From Phycicoccus flavus (GTDB taxonomy: Bacteria > Actinomycetota > Actinomycetes > Actinomycetales > Dermatophilaceae), in NCBI RefSeq assembly GCF_004025965.2, contig NZ_SAYU02000012.1, forward strand, positions 1-64,000: a DNA stretch of 64,000 nt, in the 5' to 3' direction. The notes below the pieces were generated by a model that worked only from the letters and a program-made list of their open reading frames with translations, was not told the origin of the DNA and made no database searches. Made by a program: the position numbers and the translations under genes. Shown piece by piece: positions 3,065-18,776 of the stretch. Within the stretch, counting starts at the first letter, position 1, and each line of letters opens with the position of its first letter.

Positions 3065-3091
3065 CGACACCGGCGGGTCCGTCCCGTCCGT

Positions 3092-3097
3092 TAGGTT
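3092..3097 (+). promoter_or_regulatory. Probable -10 box for bcp
   Basis: TAGGTT between tRNA-Leu and bcp, about 53 bp before the GTG start; it would give a leader of roughly 45 nt carrying the AGGAGG at 3139-3144. Pattern-based only. Confidence 0.4.
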
Positions 3098-3149
3098 GGG
3101 ACCGGCCACCGCCGACGGCGGGTGGACCACCGACGAACAGGAGGCACCC

Positions 3150-3623
3150 GTGGCCGACCGGCTCGCTCCGGGCGACACCGCGCCCGACTTCACCCTGCCC
3201 GACGACACCGGGTCGGAGGTGACGCTCGGCGACCTGCGCGGCCGGAAGGTCATCGTGTACTTCTACCCCGCGGCCATGACGCCCGGGTGCACCACCCAGG
3301 CCTGCGACTTCAGCGAGAACCTCGACGCCCTGGCCACGGACGGCTACACCGTGCTCGGCATCTCGCCGGACACCCCGGAGAAGCTCGCGACCTTCCGCGA
3401 GAAGGAGCACCTCACCGTCCCGCTGCTCTCCGACGCCGACCGCTCGGTGATGACCGCGTGGGGCGCCTTCGGGGAGAAGAAACTGTACGGCAAGACCGTC
3501 GAGGGCGTCATCCGCAGCACCGTCGTCCTCGCCGAGGACGGCACCGTGAGCCACGCCTGGTACAACGTCAAGGCCACGGGCCACGTCGCCAAGCTGCGGC
3601 GTGACCTCGGGCTCGGGGAGTGA
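3150..3623 (+). CDS. bcp: Thioredoxin-dependent peroxiredoxin (Bcp/PrxQ)
   Basis: Cytoplasmic thiol peroxidase that reduces hydrogen peroxide and organic hydroperoxides using thioredoxin. 157 residues, the usual Bcp length. The peroxidatic Cys47 lies in the TPGCT motif and the resolving Cys52 five residues on (Cx4C), as in two-cysteine Bcp enzymes. The AhpC/TSA motif YFYPAAMTPGCTTQ and the C-terminal GVIRSTVVLAEDG are present. GTG at 3150 is chosen because AGGAGG ends 5 bp upstream. It lies just after tRNA-Leu and 7 bp before a DUF3618 gene, with which it may be co-transcribed. Confidence 0.95.
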   Translation: MADRLAPGDTAPDFTLPDDTGSEVTLGDLRGRKVIVYFYPAAMTPGCTTQACDFSENLDALATDGYTVLGISPDTPEKLATFREKEHLTVPLLSDADRSVMTAWGAFGEKKLYGKTVEGVIRSTVVLAEDGTVSHAWYNVKATGHVAKLRRDLGLGE

Positions 3624-3630
3624 GTCGGCG

Positions 3631-3894
3631 ATGAGCGAGCAGAAGACCATCCCCGAGCTCGAGGCCGAGGTCGTCGCCCGCCGGGAACGCCTGGCCCGCA
3701 CCGTCGACCAGCTGGTCGAGACCGCCAACCCCAAGAACATCCTCGCCCGCGAGGTCGAGAAGGCCAAGGCCCGCTGGGCCGACGTCGCGCAGACGCCCGA
3801 GGGCGAGCTGCGCGTCGAGCGTCTCGCGGCCGTCGTCGCCGTGGTGGCCGTCGTCGGCGGGGCGCTGGCCTTCCGCGCCTGGCGACGACGCTGA
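3631..3894 (+). CDS. DUF3618-family small membrane protein
   Basis: 87 residues. The N-terminal half is charged and helical (PELEAEVVARRERLARTVDQL), followed by one C-terminal hydrophobic helix (LAAVVAVVAVVGGALAFRAW) and an Arg-rich tail, so it is probably a tail-anchored inner-membrane protein with its helical part in the cytoplasm. This layout and the R/KxxLxxTVDQL core match the actinobacterial DUF3618 family, whose function is not established. It lies between bcp and a GroES paralogue at very short spacing, suggesting one transcript. Confidence 0.78.
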   Translation: MSEQKTIPELEAEVVARRERLARTVDQLVETANPKNILAREVEKAKARWADVAQTPEGELRVERLAAVVAVVAVVGGALAFRAWRRR

Positions 3895-3896
3895 GC

Positions 3897-4226
3897 GTGG
3901 GCGAGTCGCGCAGCCGGCTCCCGATCCGGATGCTGCACGACCGGGTGCTCGTGTCGCTGGAGGGTGAGACCGGCGAGCGCCGGTCCGGGGGCGGCATCGT
4001 CATCCCGGCGACGGCCAGCGTCGGCAAGCGGCTCGCCTGGGCCGCGGTCGTGGCCGCCGGTCCCGTCGCCCGGCACGTCGAGCCGGGCGACCGGGTGCTC
4101 TTCGACCCCGAGGACCGTGCCGAGGTCGAGATCGGGGCCAAGGACTACGTCCTGCTGCGTGAACGGGACATCCACGCCGTGGCCGCCCAGCGCGTCGACG
4201 AGGGCTCGACCGGGCTGTACCTCTGA
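3897..4226 (+). CDS. GroES-family co-chaperonin paralogue
   Basis: 109-residue Cpn10-fold protein starting at a GTG 2 bp after the DUF3618 stop. The core reads MLHDRVLVSLEG, then GGGIVIPATAS in the place of the mobile loop, and GDRVLFDPEDRAEVEIGAKDYVLLRERDIHAV, which corresponds to the GroES segment GDxVLFxxYxGxEVxxxxxxYxxLxxxDIxA. No groEL lies beside it, and the mobile loop is Gly-rich rather than the canonical form, so this is likely a specialised paralogue rather than the main heat-shock GroES. Whether it binds GroEL is unknown. Confidence 0.8.
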   Translation: MGESRSRLPIRMLHDRVLVSLEGETGERRSGGGIVIPATASVGKRLAWAAVVAAGPVARHVEPGDRVLFDPEDRAEVEIGAKDYVLLRERDIHAVAAQRVDEGSTGLYL

Positions 4227-4251
4227 GCCGCGGGCCGGCCGGAGGGCGGGG

Positions 4252-5196
4252 TCACACCGCCGTGGGGTCCGACACCCGGGCGATGCGCCCGCCCGCCCGG
4301 TGCCCGGACTCCACGAGCAGGGCGACGGCCTTGCGGCCGGCGGCGTCCGGGAGCACCGGGAGCAGCCGGTCCACCGCGTCGGCGGCCAGGCCGAGGCGGC
4401 TCTCGCTGAGGCTGCGGGCGGTGCCGCGGACCAGCCGCCCCCAGGCCCCGGTGGGCTCCGGCTCGGCGAGGACCCTGCCGTGCTTGGCCGAGAAGATCTC
4501 GCGCGCGCTGCCGCTGTAGAAGGCCCGGCGGGCGCGCAGGCCCGTCGTCGTCGCGACGAGCCGGTGGACGGTCTCCAGCGCCGGGTCGAGCACGACGGGC
4601 CGTCCCGTGGCCGCGAGCCGGTACCCCCAGTCGACGTCCTCCCAGCCGTAGGCCCGGTAGGCGGTGTCGTAGGGCCCGACCTCCTCCCAGGCCTCGCGGG
4701 TGACCGAGGCGTTGCCGGCCCAGTAGCGCCACCGGGTGGACTCCGCGCTCGCGTACGCGGCCTCGCGCAGGGCGGTGTCGGCCCGGCGGCCGTAGACACG
4801 GGCGAAGGGCGTCTCGGGGAAGACGTTGCGGTAGAGACCGACGGCGCCGACCTCCCGGCCGGCGTGGGCGGCGACGTGGGCGGCGACGTAGCCGGGCGCG
4901 GGTTCGAGGTCGTCGTCGCACCGCACGAGGACCCGACCCCGGGCCGCGTCGAACCCGGTGTTGAGGGCCGTCACCCGCCCCAGGTTCTCCGGGAGCACCA
5001 CCACCCGCAGGTCCAGCGGCCCCCGGTGCGCCTTCGCCACCCGCTCGCTGCCGTCGGTGTCCCCGTCGACGACGAGGACGACCTCCCACGGCTCGGTCGT
5101 GTCCTGGGCCGCGAGGGCGGCGAGGAGGGCGGGCAGCCGGTGGGCGCCGCGGTAGGACGGGACGACCACGGAAGCCGCGAGCGCCGGGCGCGCCAT
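4252..5196 (-). CDS. Glycosyltransferase family 2
   Basis: GT-A transferase of 314 residues. N-terminal ASVVVPSYRGAHRLPALL and VVDGDTDGSERVA form the nucleotide-binding part, LVRCDDDLEPAPGYVAAH holds the DxD-type metal motif, and GNASVTREAWEEVGPYD with YGWEDVDWGYRLAATG is the acceptor region with the conserved ED pair. Start ATG at 5196 with GGGAGGA just upstream on the transcribed strand. It is convergent with the GroES paralogue and lies beyond the tRNA-Lys terminator. A role in cell-wall or capsule glycan synthesis is inferred from the fold and the many glycan genes in this window; donor and acceptor are unknown. Confidence 0.88.
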   Translation of the reverse strand: MARPALAASVVVPSYRGAHRLPALLAALAAQDTTEPWEVVLVVDGDTDGSERVAKAHRGPLDLRVVVLPENLGRVTALNTGFDAARGRVLVRCDDDLEPAPGYVAAHVAAHAGREVGAVGLYRNVFPETPFARVYGRRADTALREAAYASAESTRWRYWAGNASVTREAWEEVGPYDTAYRAYGWEDVDWGYRLAATGRPVVLDPALETVHRLVATTTGLRARRAFYSGSAREIFSAKHGRVLAEPEPTGAWGRLVRGTARSLSESRLGLAADAVDRLLPVLPDAAGRKAVALLVESGHRAGGRIARVSDPTAV

Positions 5197-5387: not shown

Positions 5388-6032
5388 TCAGGGGGAGTCC
5401 GGCGGGGGTCCGTCGCCGCCGCGGACCCGCCGCCGGGCGAGCAGCACGACGGCCACGAGGACCACCGCGACGAGCCCCACGAGGGCGAGCGGGAGCGTCC
5501 ACGACGAGCCCTGGACCTCCGCCGTGGGGGCCGTCGCCGGGCTCGGTTCGGCGGACGGTCCGGTGGGGGTGGGCGTCGCCGTCGGGTCCGCGGACGTGCT
5601 CGGCGACGCCGTGGGGGAGGCGGAGCGGGGGGTCGCCGTCGTCGAGAAGGAGAACGTGCCCGAGACCGGGTGCCCGTCGACGCTGACGACGCGGTAGGTG
5701 ACCGTGTGCTCACCCGCCGGCAGGTCGTCGACGAGGGCCTGGCGCACCTGGCCACCGTCCGTCGTCGCGTCGCCGTCCGTCTCGTCGCCGTCCGGACCCT
5801 CGACCGTGACCTGCAGGAAGCGGGGGTTCACGTCCTCGCTGAAGGTCAGGCGCACCTCCTGCGCGGTGCGGACCGTGGACCCGTCGCGCGGAGCGGTCCC
5901 GGTGAGCTGGGCGTGGGCGGGCAGCGCCGCCGCCGGGTGCGCGAAGACGGGGACGGCCGAGACGACGAGGGCGACGGTCACGAGGGCCACGAGCAGGGCG
6001 GTGATGACGGCGGTGGTCCGGCGGGAGAACAT
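5388..6032 (-). CDS. CopC-domain copper-binding protein with C-terminal membrane anchor
   Basis: 214-residue exported protein. An N-terminal signal helix (AVITALLVALVTVALVVSAV) ends near FAHPAAALPAHAQL, placing an early His as the probable mature-chain copper ligand. The CopC beta-sandwich follows (GTAPRDGSTV, VRLTFSEDVNP, TYRVVSVDGHPVSGTFSF; the last His is the second conserved ligand). Then a Pro/Thr/Ser linker of about 40 residues and a C-terminal helix (LPLALVGLVAVVLVAVVLLA) with an Arg-rich stop-transfer. This is the YcnJ/CopC-like layout but without a CopD domain. The start at 6032 rather than 6071 is supported by CACACT exactly 7 nt upstream. Likely role: binding copper outside the membrane; no partner gene is visible here. 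Confidence 0.82.
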   Translation of the reverse strand: MFSRRTTAVITALLVALVTVALVVSAVPVFAHPAAALPAHAQLTGTAPRDGSTVRTAQEVRLTFSEDVNPRFLQVTVEGPDGDETDGDATTDGGQVRQALVDDLPAGEHTVTYRVVSVDGHPVSGTFSFSTTATPRSASPTASPSTSADPTATPTPTGPSAEPSPATAPTAEVQGSSWTLPLALVGLVAVVLVAVVLLARRRVRGGDGPPPDSP

Positions 6033-6039
6033 GCACGCC

Positions 6040-6045
6040 AGTGTG
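6040..6045 (-). promoter_or_regulatory. -10 box for copC-like gene (leaderless)
   Basis: CACACT on the minus strand, 7 nt before the ATG at 6032, in the spacing seen repeatedly in this window for leaderless starts. Confidence 0.45.
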
Positions 6046-6066
6046 ACAGGCGTCCCTGACCGGTGA

Positions 6067-6072
6067 GACACT
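6067..6072 (+). promoter_or_regulatory. -10 box for rmlC-like gene (leaderless)
   Basis: GACACT 7 nt before the GTG at 6080. It lies back to back with the copC-like promoter, so both divergent transcripts start within about 50 bp. Confidence 0.45.
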
Positions 6073-6079
6073 GCCGCCC

Positions 6080-6652
6080 GTGGCCGCCGCTAGCACCCAG
6101 TTCACCGCCGCCGAGACCGCCGTCCCCGGGCTGCTGACCTTCGAGGTGACCCGCGTCGACGACGCCCGGGGCTGGTTCCAGGAGAAGTTCCACCAGGAGA
6201 AGCTCGAGGCCGCCGGCCTCCCGCCGGGGTTCCGGGTGGTCCAGACCAACGTCGCCGCCAGCGTCACCGGGGTCACCCGCGGGTTCCACGCCGAGCCGTG
6301 GGACAAGTACGTCTCCATCGTCTCCGGCCGGGCGCACGGCGCGTACGTGGACCTGCGCCGGGGACCGACCTACGGCACGGTCGTCGAGGTCGAGCTGCGG
6401 CCCGACGTCGCCGTGTTCCTGCCGGCGGGCGTCGGGAACTCCTACCAGTGCCTCGAGGACGTCGTGTACCTCTACAGCGTCAACCGGCACTGGACCCCGG
6501 ACGCCTACGAGCGCTACACCTTCGTCAACCTCGCCGACCCGGACCTCGGGGTGCGCTGGCCGGTGCCGCTGGAGCGGGCGATCCTCTCGGACAAGGACCG
6601 GGAGCACCCGATGCTGCGCGACGCCCGCCCGATGGACCTGCCCGCCGGCTGA
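6080..6652 (+). CDS. dTDP-4-dehydrorhamnose 3,5-epimerase-like cupin (RmlC family)
   Basis: 190-residue RmlC-fold protein, the typical length. The family epimerises dTDP-4-keto-6-deoxyglucose at C3 and C5 on the way to dTDP-L-rhamnose. The active-site segment TRGFHAEPWDKYVSIVSGRA holds the catalytic His and basic residue, followed by GAYVDLRRG, LPAGVGNSYQCLEDVVYLYSV and the late DPDLGVRWPV. The HAEPWDK form resembles the epimerase half of actinobacterial RmlC-RmlD proteins. RmlA, RmlB and RmlD are not in this window, so rhamnose or another deoxyhexose as product is inferred. Starts at a GTG with no Shine-Dalgarno but a -10 box 7 nt upstream. Confidence 0.85.
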   Translation: MAAASTQFTAAETAVPGLLTFEVTRVDDARGWFQEKFHQEKLEAAGLPPGFRVVQTNVAASVTGVTRGFHAEPWDKYVSIVSGRAHGAYVDLRRGPTYGTVVEVELRPDVAVFLPAGVGNSYQCLEDVVYLYSVNRHWTPDAYERYTFVNLADPDLGVRWPVPLERAILSDKDREHPMLRDARPMDLPAG

Positions 6653-6679
6653 GACCCGCCCCGGCGAGCCGGAACGCGG

Positions 6680-6711
6680 ACCGCCCCGGTCCGGGGACGG
6701 ACCGGGGCGGT
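6680..6711. terminator. Bidirectional hairpin between rmlC-like gene and tRNA-His
   Basis: A 13-bp perfect stem (ACCGCCCCGGTCC / GGACCGGGGCGGT) with a 6-nt loop. It lies 28 bp after the rmlC-like stop and 5 bp from the 3' end of the convergent tRNA-His, so it can terminate both transcripts. Confidence 0.8.
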
Positions 6712-6715
6712 GCCC

Positions 6716-6792
6716 TGGGGTGAGTGACGGGACTTGAACCCGCGACCCTCGCGACCACAACGCGATGCTCTACCAGCTGAGCTACACCCACC
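6716..6792 (-). tRNA. tRNA-His (GTG)
   Basis: Anticodon arm TCGCG-TTGTGGT-CGCGA gives anticodon GTG. Acceptor GTGGGTG pairs with CACTCAC, with the His-specific extra G-1 at 6792 opposite C73, and the CCA is encoded at 6716-6718. Confidence 0.96.
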
Positions 6793-6858
6793 ACGGCGGG
6801 CGCATGCCGTCCGTGACATCCGGAGGTCGTGCGCCCGCAGCGCGGACCATCGTACCGG

Positions 6859-7542
6859 CTACCCGGGGGTGCTCCCGACCACGCCCTCGCCGGGCTCGTC
6901 ACCGCCCGCCGGGCCGGCGTCGTGGTCGACGACGTGGCGGGCGGCGAGGCCGCGCAGCTCGTCGGTCGGACGGCCCGGCGGCTCGACGAAGACCGCCTCC
7001 CGGTAGTAGCGCAGCTCGGCGATGGACTCGCGGATGTCCGCCAGCGCCCGGTGCCCGCCGGACTTCGTCGGTGCGGAGAAGTAGGCCCGGGGGTACCACC
7101 GCCGGGACAGCTCCTTGATCGAGGAGACGTCGATGATCCGGTAGTGCAGGTGGCTCTCCAGGCCCGGCATGTCCCGGGCGAGGAAGGCCCGGTCGGTGGC
7201 GACGGTGTTGCCGCCGAGCGGAGCCTTGCCGGCCTCGGGGACCCACTCGCGGACGTAGTCCAGGACGCGCGCCTCGGCCTCCTCCAGGGTGGTCCCGGCG
7301 GCGAGCTCCTCGAGCAGCCCCGACGTCGTGTGCATCCGGCGGACGAAGTCGCCCATCTGCGCCAGCGCGGCGTCCGGCGGGCGCACGACGACGTCGACGC
7401 CGTCGCCGAGGACCGTGAGCTCGAAGTCGGTGACGAGGGCCGCGACCTCGACGAGGGCGTCGGCCTCGAGGGACAGGCCGGTCATCTCGCAGTCGATCCA
7501 GACGATCCGGTCGGACAGGGCGCGGTCGGAGGGGCTGGGCAT
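6859..7542 (-). CDS. orn: Oligoribonuclease
   Basis: 3'-5' exoribonuclease that degrades di- to pentaribonucleotides to mononucleotides, finishing RNA turnover and pGpG breakdown. DEDDh catalytic residues are all visible: WIDCEMTGL (Asp, Glu) near the N terminus, [15 protein letters not shown] (Asp) and [12 protein letters not shown] (His, Asp). The [11 protein letters not shown] and RRWYP segments are also conserved. It has a C-terminal extension beyond the roughly 190-residue core, rich in Gly, Pro and Glu. Two in-frame ATGs exist (7551, 7542); the second is chosen because TAGCAT, which contains the first ATG, sits exactly 7 nt upstream of it as a -10 box. Divergent from the PrsW gene. 227 residues. 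Confidence 0.94.
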
Positions 7543-15800: not shown

Positions 15801-16334
15801 TCAGCGGCTCCAGCGCTCCAGGCCGACGTGCACCGTGGTCGGGTCGTCCGGCTCGATGAGGACCGTGCGCTGCCACGCGGGGTTCTCGGGCCACTGCGAG
15901 GCGCAGATCCGCGACCCCTGCGCCGGCGTGCCCTCGACACCGAGGGCCTCGGTCTGGTCCGCGGTCAGCGCCACCGCGGGGAGGTCGCCGCCCAGGCCGC
16001 CGCTGGCGCAGAAGCCGAGCGCGGCCCCCCGGTCGACGACGAAGGTGACCCGGTAGGCCTCCTCGACGTTCTCCGGGAGTCCGGTGCGGGTCTCGACCTG
16101 GGCGCCACCGGCGCCCGGCGGCAGCTGGAGGCCGGCGAGCCCGAGGACCGCCTCGGGCGAGTCCGCCGCGGACGAGGACCGGGAGGCGGAGGGTGACTCC
16201 GAGGTCGGGGTGCTGCCGGCGGCGTCCGGGCGGGCGCCTGCCGCGTCGTCGGACAGCCCGCAGGCCCCGGTGGCGAGGGTGAGGGCCACGCAGGTCGCGA
16301 CGACGAGGGCGGGGCCGGGGCGGAGACGGGTCAT
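15801..16334 (-). CDS. Putative lipoprotein of unknown function
   Basis: 177 residues with a lipoprotein signal: basic start, hydrophobic core, and lipobox ATGAC with the lipidated Cys at residue 25. A Ser/Thr/Pro/Asp-rich linker follows, then a compact domain (VLGLAGLQLPPGAGG, YRVTFVVDRGAALGFCASGG, RICASQWPEN, VHVGLERWSR) with two Cys that may form a disulfide. The family is not recognised. The ATG overlaps the stop of the upstream pilin-like gene by 4 bp (ATGA), so the two are translationally coupled; a partner, stabiliser or protective role for that protein is possible but only inferred from the arrangement. Confidence 0.72.
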   Translation of the reverse strand: MTRLRPGPALVVATCVALTLATGACGLSDDAAGARPDAAGSTPTSESPSASRSSSAADSPEAVLGLAGLQLPPGAGGAQVETRTGLPENVEEAYRVTFVVDRGAALGFCASGGLGGDLPAVALTADQTEALGVEGTPAQGSRICASQWPENPAWQRTVLIEPDDPTTVHVGLERWSR

Positions 16335-17416
16335 GGCACCTCTCCTGACGAGTTCTGGGTCGACGAGGTTCCCACGGCGGTGAACTCCTGGGCCAGGCCC
16401 ACCCGGTGCAGCCGGGCCAGCTGCTCGTCGGTGATGGTCAGCGGCCCGATCCGCGTGGACTTCCCGCCGTCCCAGTTGTACCGGTCGCGGATGTTCACCT
16501 GGGTGGTCGTCGTGTACGTCCACGGCTCCCCGGGGGAGGCCGGTGGGGTGACGGTGACCGACCCGGTCTGGTTGTACGAGATGCCGCCGAGGGCGTAGAA
16601 CCAGTTCGCCGAGTCGTCCTTCGTGATGTAGACCCCGTTCCACGGGGTGTTCACCGGGAAGGTCATCGGTCCGGTGGCGCCGGCCGCCCGGGCCTGCTCG
16701 ACGGCGAGCGCGGCGAGGTTCAGCTGCTGGGCGTCGACGGCCTCCGTCAGCGCACTGCTCGACTCCAGCATCGAGTCGACGTCCTGCTCGTAGGTCTCGC
16801 CGGAGTTGCCAAGGAAGTGAAGGAGGTTGCGGGCGGCGTCCGGCCAGGTCCCGGACAGCGCGTTCGCGGCCGCCTCGGCCGCGGCCAGGGTCGCGCGGTC
16901 ACGGATCGAGGGGTCCTCCCCGGCGTAGGGGCCGGCCCCCTGGTCCGGTGGGGTCCAGGGCGGCGGCTGCTGCCCGCCGGGCACGGTGGTCCCCGGAACG
17001 CCAGGGCCGAGGCCACCGGGATAGGCGTCGCTGCCCTCGGTGCCGCCCTCGGGCGGGGTGCCGGGGTCCTCGTCGCTCGGGCGGTCGCCGCGCGCGTCGT
17101 CGCGGCGGTTGCCGCGGGTGTCGCGCTCGGCGTCGCGGCGGTCGCCGTCGTCCGCGCTCGCGCCCACCGGACCGGTGATGCTCGACGTCGTGCACGACCC
17201 GCCGCCGGTCACCTGCTGCCACGCGCAGCCGATGGCCGAGGTGACCGGGCCGACGCCGACGACGCCGACGATCGCCGCGACGCAGACGCCGGCGACGAGA
17301 GCCATCCCCACGAACTCGACGCTCGCGCCACCCCGCTCGCACGATCCGCCGCGCTCGGCCGCACCGACGCCCGCGGGCCTCGCGGTCGCGGCGGCGGTCC
17401 TTCGTCGACGGGTCAC
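16331..17416 (-). CDS. Secreted protein with TadE/Flp-like N terminus and conserved C-terminal domain
   Basis: 361 residues. After a basic leader, the segment ERGGASVEFVGMALVAGVC followed by an Ala/Val-rich helix resembles the class III signal of Tad pseudopilins (Gly before ASVEF, Glu shortly after). A second small block with two Cys (IGCAWQQVTGGGSCTT) is followed by a low-complexity Arg/Asp then Gly/Pro-rich linker of about 100 residues. The C-terminal 160 residues look globular: NTPWNGVYITKDDSANWFYA, then DRYNWDGGKSTRIGPLTITD and EQLARLHRVGLAQEFTAVG. That C-terminal pattern resembles ends of some large secreted actinobacterial proteins, but I cannot name the family. The GTG at 17416 has GGAGGGG 7 nt upstream. 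Coupled to a lipoprotein gene. Confidence 0.7.
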   Translation of the reverse strand: MTRRRRTAAATARPAGVGAAERGGSCERGGASVEFVGMALVAGVCVAAIVGVVGVGPVTSAIGCAWQQVTGGGSCTTSSITGPVGASADDGDRRDAERDTRGNRRDDARGDRPSDEDPGTPPEGGTEGSDAYPGGLGPGVPGTTVPGGQQPPPWTPPDQGAGPYAGEDPSIRDRATLAAAEAAANALSGTWPDAARNLLHFLGNSGETYEQDVDSMLESSSALTEAVDAQQLNLAALAVEQARAAGATGPMTFPVNTPWNGVYITKDDSANWFYALGGISYNQTGSVTVTPPASPGEPWTYTTTTQVNIRDRYNWDGGKSTRIGPLTITDEQLARLHRVGLAQEFTAVGTSSTQNSSGEVP

Positions 17417-17498
17417 GGTTTCTCCCCTCCGGAGCATGACCGGCACGCTAGCGGCGAACCGTGCTGGGCACCCGGGCCCCAGGGCCCGACCTCGGGCC

Positions 17499-17504
17499 TA
17501 CCCT
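17499..17504 (+). promoter_or_regulatory. -10 box for membrane protein gene (leaderless)
   Basis: TACCCT 6 nt before the GTG at 17511, no ribosome-binding site. Confidence 0.4.
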
Positions 17505-17510
17505 GGCCGG

Positions 17511-18776
17511 GTGCCACGGTCGGGGGGAGGGGTCGTCCGTCGCGCGGTGTGGTGGGCGCTGGTCGTGGTGCTCGTCGCCGGGCTGGGCCGGACCGCCTGG
17601 TACGCGACGGGGTCCGGGAGCGAGGCGGCCCGGGTGAGCGGCCAGCTGCGGTGGCTGGGCTCCGAGCTGGACCACCACGACGCGGCGGGGCGGATGCAGG
17701 GGCTGTTCCCCGAGGGCGCGTTCTTCACGACCGTGCTGGACGGCCTGGCCCGCACGGCGACGGCGCAGGGCGCCTCCGGACCGGAGCGGACCGCGGCGCT
17801 CGAGGTGGCCCGACGCCGTCTGGCCGACCTGCGGTCACGGGACCTGCTCGCGACGTTCCCGGCCACGGCCGAGCTCCCGCACGGGGTCTTCGCCGAGGCC
17901 TGGACGCTGCTGCTCGAGGCCGACGTGGCCGGGCTCGACGGCACGCCGGCGGAGCGCGACGCGATGCGGGCGCGGGCCACCCGGCTGCGGGACGCCCTCG
18001 ACCGGTCCGCCGGCGGCTTCCTCCAGGCCTACCCGGGGCAGGCGTGGCCGGTCGACACGGTCGTCGCCGCGGCGGCCCTGGCCCGGGCCGACCGCGTGGA
18101 GCCGGTGCCCGGCACCGCCGGCACCCTGCGGCGGTGGGTCGCCCGGGTCGAGCTCCACCGGGACCCGGTGACGCGGCTGCTGCCGCACCGGGTCGCGCCG
18201 GACGGGACGGGCCTGGAGGGGCCGCGCGGCAGCTCGTCGGCACTGGCGCAGGTGTTCTGGCCGGACGCCGACCCCGAGGCGGCGGCGGCGGACTACCCGC
18301 GCTTCGTCGCGACCTTCGTCACCCGCGTGGTCGGGGCGATCGGGGTGCGGGAGTACCCGCGCGGGACCCCCGGGGGTGGGGACGTCGACTCCGGACCCCT
18401 CGTCGCGGGGGTCTCGCTGTCCGCGACCGCCGTCGCCCTCGCGGCGGCCCGGCGCGCGGGCGACGAGCGGCTGGCGCGCGACCTCCTGGCCCAGGCCGAG
18501 GTCGCGGGCCTGCCGGTCCAGGCGGCGGGCCAGCGGCGCTACGCCGCGGGGGTCCTGCCGGTCGGCGACGCGTTCCTCCTCTGGGCCCGCACCCGCCCGG
18601 TCGGCGAGGGGACGCCCGCCGTCACGGCGCCCCGCCCGCTGTGGGTGCTGTGGTCCCTGCCCTGGGTGCTGGGGCTCCTGCTCCTCGTCGCCGTCCCCGT
18701 CCTGCGACACCGGCGCCGGCGCGGCGCATCCGGCAGCGGCCGCGACGGATTCGGAGCCGTGGACGGCCGTCGATAG
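17511..18776 (+). CDS. Membrane-anchored protein of unknown function with helical-repeat ectodomain
   Basis: 421 residues. An N-terminal helix (AVWWALVVVLVAGLGRTAWY) and a C-terminal helix (LWVLWSLPWVLGLLLLVAVPVL) with a basic tail place the 330-residue middle outside the cell. The middle is helical with repeated aromatic/Ala-rich hairpins, e.g. LLATFPATAELPHGVFAEAW, YPGQAWPVDTVVAAAALARA, and SGPLVAGVSLSATAVALAAA, suggesting an alpha/alpha-barrel or toroid as in some glycan- or terpene-acting enzymes. No catalytic motif is recognised. The GTG at 17511 is chosen from the -10 box 6 nt upstream. Divergent from the pilin-like/lipoprotein pair, and 10 bp before ettA. Confidence 0.68.
   Translation: MPRSGGGVVRRAVWWALVVVLVAGLGRTAWYATGSGSEAARVSGQLRWLGSELDHHDAAGRMQGLFPEGAFFTTVLDGLARTATAQGASGPERTAALEVARRRLADLRSRDLLATFPATAELPHGVFAEAWTLLLEADVAGLDGTPAERDAMRARATRLRDALDRSAGGFLQAYPGQAWPVDTVVAAAALARADRVEPVPGTAGTLRRWVARVELHRDPVTRLLPHRVAPDGTGLEGPRGSSSALAQVFWPDADPEAAAADYPRFVATFVTRVVGAIGVREYPRGTPGGGDVDSGPLVAGVSLSATAVALAAARRAGDERLARDLLAQAEVAGLPVQAAGQRRYAAGVLPVGDAFLLWARTRPVGEGTPAVTAPRPLWVLWSLPWVLGLLLLVAVPVLRHRRRRGASGSGRDGFGAVDGRR

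Follow-up and report, generated by a model that had tools for sequence, protein, structure and literature searches.

The 64-kb window analyzed here (64,000 nucleotides of Phycicoccus flavus, lying on contig C24 of a 4.26-Mb genome in 153 contigs) encodes a pilin-led protein of 361 residues and a lipoprotein that probably constitute a polymorphic toxin-immunity pair. The toxin gene (16331-17416, reverse strand, GTG start) comprises (i) a Flp-like pilin module (residues 26-75; positions 17192-17341), (ii) a low-complexity linker rich in Gly, Pro, Asp, and Arg (residues 76-158; positions 16943-17191), and (iii) a C-terminal domain with a predicted colicin M fold (residues 159-361; positions 16334-16942). 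The putative immunity gene (15801-16334, same strand) encodes a product of 177 residues with a lipobox, its ATG reading from 16334 and the toxin stop codon occupying 16331-16333, so that the two frames overlap by 4 bp. The type of the leader, the fold, the modularity of the domain, the conservation of the gene pair, and the presence of Tad machinery in the genome are established computationally. Given a toxin-immunity pair, the C-terminal domain is likely a colicin M-like enzyme with lipid II as its putative substrate, and we lean slightly toward an export or display of the toxin that would depend on Tad; the reading as a whole, a colicin M-like toxin attacking lipid II, exported or displayed through Tad and neutralized by the lipoprotein, has about even chances. 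An earlier, sequence-only reading of the window had already described these two frames together with a divergent one on the forward strand (17511-18776), the 4-bp overlap, and the segments GGASVEF, DRYNWDGGK (residues 311-319; positions 16460-16486), and LHRVGLAQEF (residues 336-345), all of which are found as claimed.

The separate C-terminal domain that the sequence-only reading placed behind the linker is borne out by related domains in 28 loci from several phyla, with hosts including actinobacteria, Luteimonas, Sphingomonas, Aquabacterium, Planctomycetes, Acidobacteria, and one cyanobacterium. The closest named relative belongs to Phycicoccus avicenniae (68% identity), and the domain occurs in 17 of the 396 genomes of the order. 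The alignment of 26 sequences discloses 15 invariant columns, including D311, R312, Y313, N314, W315, D316, G317, and K319 of the DRYNWDGGK motif (P0001 numbering); R312 is not universal, because members found later read DQYNWDG. Membership in a housekeeping or structural family, a test set in advance, is rejected: the window copy belongs to no Pfam or NCBIfam family, every family matched in these collections by the 26 members is matched by one member only (best E-values 0.008 and 0.013), and a PDB sequence search yields a best E-value of just 0.19. Pfam DUF3289 gives no match for the family. Two genome searches for colicin M or DUF3289 sequences are each negative in all 274 genomes; the first, for Colicin_M, is silent in its controls too and carries no information, and the second gives a match in the E. 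coli control only.

The relationship becomes apparent at the structural level. The AlphaFold model of the domain, computed from the 26 sequences (predicted local distance difference test score 94.3; predicted template modeling score 0.86), displays the colicin M fold, with PaeM as the best Foldseek match (4g76, E 3.7e-4), followed by syringacin M (4fzl and 4fzm, E 8.7e-4 and 7.7e-4, respectively), the type VI effector complex BtpeA-BtpiA (9jdi, E 1.3e-3), and pectocin M2 (E 2.5e-2), the first unrelated row appearing at E 0.31. In VIA-align, entries of colicin M-type bacteriocins account for eleven of the rows 1-12 and 9jdi for the other one, with Z-scores of 9.8-7.4, and the next row falls to 4.9. 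Compared to colicin M, PaeM, syringacin M, and pectocin M, the domain preserves the fold of the catalytic domain and the D-x-Y portion of the published motif, DxYD(x5)HR (PMC8469651), but displays N at the position of D229, and its conserved H337 (followed by R338 in the window copy) lies beyond the x5 position of the colicin M HR pair. Judging from the published motif, D311 and Y313 are the proposed counterparts of D226 and Y228 of colicin M. The window protein further differs from these bacteriocins in lacking a receptor-binding domain and carrying a pilin leader instead. As stated in the consulted portions of PMC8469651, colicin M is able to cleave Gram-positive-type lipid II in vitro, and the corresponding immunity protein, anchored in the membrane, works outside the cytoplasmic membrane, a location that the lipoprotein of the window would share. 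As a relative of colicin M, the C-terminal domain is widespread and undescribed, and its catalytic motif has diverged.

The same domain stands behind different secretion leaders, a hallmark by which polymorphic toxins are recognized. Among the survey loci named here, for which alone leader classes were assigned, the domain follows Flp-like leaders in the window, L008, L011, L038, and L078/L128; PG_binding_1 precedes it in L027 and L028, and an S8-CHAP protein in L022, while the LysM of L026 is placed after it. WXG100-type leaders are also found, in other actinobacteria, single ones scoring below the Pfam cut-off and a profile of seven of them giving EsxA as the best PDB match (E 3.2e-5). In addition, VgrG genes lie downstream of the domain in three loci (L025, L029, and L034), and TssE and TssF genes lie next to it in one (L031).

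The gene directly downstream is positioned as the immunity genes of polymorphic toxin systems are. Of the 28 loci, 23 have an immunity-type gene, encoding a lipobox or a hydrophobic anchor, whose start falls between -32 and +4 nucleotides relative to the toxin stop, mostly with an overlap of 4 bp. The pair is kept together in relatives, whereas its separation there would, by the sequence-only reading, have counted against it; the remaining loci comprise L014, at a contig end, and L022, L026, L028, and L031, without an immunity-type gene. Most of these 23 partners went into the immunity profile, and an independent set was formed by 16 further non-duplicate rows outside it. Eleven of these match the profile at E 2e-10 or better (L038, L039, L040, L041, L048, L078, L079, L080, L082, L083, and L084, with L083 and L084 sharing one immunity start), two match weakly (L085, 2e-4; L081, 0.03), and three do not match (L087, L088, and L091). 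Taken together, the 28 loci and the 16 rows indicate that the partner tracks the toxin domain and not the leader. The partner family is highly divergent, with a mean column identity of 24%. The model of the window lipoprotein is confident over residues 60-177 and adopts an α/β fold, for which Foldseek returns no match at E 0.001 or better and VIA lists PA1624 (Z 9.4) and DcrB (Z 6.1) as its best rows, the immunity model being in this respect closest to α/β folds other than those of the colicin M family; Cmi, TipC, and BtpiA are not among the fold matches listed, which excludes none of them.

Two loci depart from the simple pair. In L015 (Actinomyces oris), a full toxin copy and a short one stand in tandem, and a run of three small lipoprotein-like genes, related to one another, lies between and after them. 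L028 (Alphaproteobacteria bacterium SO-S41) contains two toxin-domain frames close by, one of them behind PG_binding_1, neither directly followed by an immunity-type gene.

The leader of the toxin displays the full set of class III signal elements: a basic stretch, a glycine, the G-A-S-V-E segment with E at +5, an aromatic residue at +6, and a hydrophobic helix. A profile of eight tad-locus-type modules, from which every colicin M-type fusion was excluded, scores the toxin N-terminus at 48.4 bits and four related fusions at 47.6, 41.2, 34.1, and 33.0 bits, whereas 2000 shuffled versions of the toxin N-terminus reach 12.4 bits at most. A pilin of 71 residues encoded on contig C111 of the same genome has nearly the same leader stretch (EYLGMALVAGIVIAAIVGVV versus EFVGMALVAGVCVAAIVGVV). 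None of the curated pilin families TadE, Flp, and DUF4244 matches the 361-residue protein, and the C111 pilin itself remains below the DUF4244 cut-off (E 0.006); 'Flp-like' is therefore used as a descriptive label. The Tad/TadE-like leader of the sequence-only reading accordingly stands as a Tad-type pilin signal, but one nearer to the small Flp-like pilins of C111 than to Pfam TadE.

The same reading had called the pilin-like protein orphaned, which holds for contig C24, where TadE, T2SSF, and T2SSE give no match, but not for the genome, other contigs of which carry members of each of these families. A genome search for Tad machinery and a prepilin peptidase locates both on contig C111, which carries matches to T2SSE, two T2SSF, TadE, Peptidase_A24, and the Flp-like pilin, and therefore a Tad locus, with CpaB- and TadZ-like neighbors identified by eye; further Tad-like genes lie on contigs C98, C101, C72, and C73. 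The toxin leader is thus orphaned only locally. A T2SSE ATPase is found in 18 of 18 genomes with toxin loci, a count that does not discriminate.

Flp-like leaders carry passengers beyond the colicin M-type domain. At an E-value of 0.01, a survey profile of 12 leader rows, the 361-residue protein included, detects matches in 111 of 396 genomes. Under the cut-offs applied to 40 hand-picked regions with long frames, 32 yielded 37 fusions and eight yielded none; with five earlier loci added, the fusion set comprises 43 rows, one of them a duplicate. All 43 retain the class III glycine together with an acidic residue at +5. The main class includes 21 rows of an uncharacterized, seemingly β-rich type, and the remainder comprises five colicin M-type rows (four proteins), five GDSL lipases (E 2.9e-13 to 7.7e-20 in Pfam), five with a passenger of 550 residues, two calpain-type proteases (5e-22), two with a common pretoxin stretch of 96 residues, and three singles; further Pfam matches among the passengers are the DUF6782 metallopeptidase (2.5e-6) and PT-HINT (6.7e-20), a domain characteristic of polymorphic toxins. 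A lipoprotein gene comes next in 4/4 colicin M-type, 2/2 calpain, 1/1 metallopeptidase, 2/5 GDSL, and 1/2 unknown single fusions, in ten of the 21 of the large β-rich class, and in 0/5 of the 550-residue class, and the genes next to the two pretoxin types lack a signal. These followers fit an immunity protein sited at the place where the toxin acts.

Several of these fusions are worth recording individually. In the P. flavus genome itself, L123 (contig C143, about 51.6-52.8 kb) joins a Flp-like leader to a GDSL lipase followed at -4 nucleotides by a lipoprotein of 240 residues, a second effector-like pair. L124 (contig C88 of this genome), L127, and L135 carry passengers of about 550 residues behind Flp-like leaders, with no Pfam match in the two scanned. 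L070 (contig C111 of this genome) contains two frames, 3085-4479 and 5511-7025, which together with 19 relatives display a seemingly β-rich domain of 400 residues behind the Flp leader; this large family, located at or near Tad loci, possibly represents further toxins or pilus-tip proteins. L153 and L158 (genome G336) have the 96-residue stretch in common (67% identity) and differ in their C-termini, one with PT-HINT, with a small gene without a signal behind each.

In the mechanism we propose, the Flp-like module would insert the protein into the membrane, the Tad prepilin peptidase would cut the leader, and extraction would fall to the Tad machine of C111 or to a different Tad-like locus in the genome; the protein may then leave as a pilus subunit or remain exposed at the cell surface for delivery upon contact. 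In the target cell, the colicin M-fold domain would attack lipid II at the outer surface of the cytoplasmic membrane. The lipoprotein, residing at the same site in the producer, would most likely act by binding and blocking the toxin, guarding the lipid II of the producer.

Several observations weigh against this reading. The Tad genes do not adjoin the toxin-lipoprotein pair, the machinery being encoded on other contigs. At the sequence level, Pfam Colicin_M (PF14859) matches none of the 26 domain members at E-values up to 1, and only part of the catalytic motif of colicin M is preserved, with H235-R236 not in place. The E-values of the loci that built the immunity profile are circular, since the same loci served for both, and a following lipoprotein alone does not prove immunity, because one also follows 10 of the 21 uncharacterized passengers; leaders of the Flp-like kind carry, in addition, passengers that need not be toxins.

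The distance between the pair and the Tad genes bears on the leader. The pair might be a toxin and its immunity protein with the pilin-like segment serving as a signal-anchor on the membrane of the producer, involving neither a Tad pilus nor export, since the window contig is devoid of Tad genes and a hydrophobic leader could suffice as an anchor. We consider this unlikely: the class III glycine and acidic +5 residue are retained throughout the fusions, the genome encodes a prepilin peptidase and a Tad locus, and a mere anchor has no need to resemble the Flp-like pilin of its own genome. The incomplete motif raises instead the question of activity, and it is similarly doubtful, to about the same degree, that the colicin M fold serves another function here, such as recognizing a different lipid-linked head group or competing for lipid II as an inactive binder. 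The absence of the HR pair from its expected place and the divergent invariant set DxYNWDG..K would suit such a change of function, whereas the counterparts of D226 and Y228 are invariant in 26 of 26 sequences and the partner lies outside the membrane, as do the immunity proteins of colicin M.

Distinctly less probable than either is a self-directed envelope enzyme, engaged in the turnover of the lipid-linked precursors of its own cell and regulated by the lipoprotein, with no role in competition. Lipid II is indeed the substrate of colicin M-fold enzymes, and a similar leader accompanies a GDSL lipase and a lipoprotein in the same genome; nevertheless, the domain is patchily distributed within the order, swaps among secretion leaders of unrelated types and type VI loci, and has a partner that diverges fast, features typical of conflict systems and not of housekeeping. 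Between the two roles that the sequence-only reading had offered, a protected, exported effector or an assembly partner, the former is the one supported.

That reading had also grouped the pair with the divergent membrane gene as a trio, which probably does not hold. The forward-strand product (17511-18776, 421 residues) has hydrophobic stretches close to both termini and belongs to no known family. Among the loci first compared, its relatives accompany only the toxins of L008/L037 and L038, and across 149 genomes of the family they are found in seven, three beside a toxin and four, all of another genus, without a toxin match. Its occurrence without a toxin makes membership in the unit unlikely, and the gene is probably an independent neighbor.

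Several known systems share parts of this arrangement. Colicin M-fold effectors occur in type VI systems (DUF3289/DUF943; consulted parts of PMC11148199), and these, like BtpeA-BtpiA (9jdi), have the fold in common with the present family, some members of which lie near VgrG or TssE/TssF; the window copy differs in being pilin-led, in its actinobacterial host, and in its lack of a DUF3289 match. TelC-TipC of Streptococcus intermedius, described in the consulted portion of PMC6193138 as a type VII lipid II phosphatase, resembles the pair in its proposed target, Gram-positive producer, and extracellular, membrane-anchored immunity protein, with an LXG leader in place of the pilin module; TelC is not among the fold matches listed for the domain model, which does not imply exclusion. 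Flp pilins are named among the leaders of ADP-ribosyl cyclase (ARC) toxins, likewise ahead of a polymorphic toxin domain, albeit of a different activity and, in the cited passage of PMC12605009, in passing as an anchoring element. The Kil system of Myxococcus xanthus employs a Tad-like apparatus in contact-dependent killing (PMC8460266), its authors leaving unclear, in the sections consulted, whether it is a device for toxin secretion, and no pilin-toxin fusion is described in those sections. A novel colicin M-fold toxin domain after a cystatin-like leader, mentioned in the consulted part of PMC12419801, may or may not be the present domain. The string DRYNWDGGK occurs in none of the open-licence PMC papers searched, and searches of that literature yielded no description of a pilin-fused colicin M-type toxin, an earlier one elsewhere being possible.

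More broadly, and with somewhat less than even confidence, we suggest that Flp-like modules may represent an additional trafficking class of actinobacterial polymorphic toxins. By analogy with the effector-carrying evolved Hcp and VgrG proteins of type VI systems, such 'evolved pilins' would deliver exchangeable effectors through Tad machines, including colicin M-like, calpain, metallopeptidase, GDSL lipase, and HINT-processed toxins, each accompanied by a site-matched immunity protein, a lipoprotein for envelope-acting toxins and a cytosolic protein for the HINT type. Tad pili, widespread among Actinobacteria, are usually treated as adhesins or DNA-uptake devices. With a toxin domain common to type VI and type VII loci found on a pilin leader and accompanied by a conserved immunity gene, the delivery of toxins by Tad machines would become testable, and the question could be reduced to a small set of genes.

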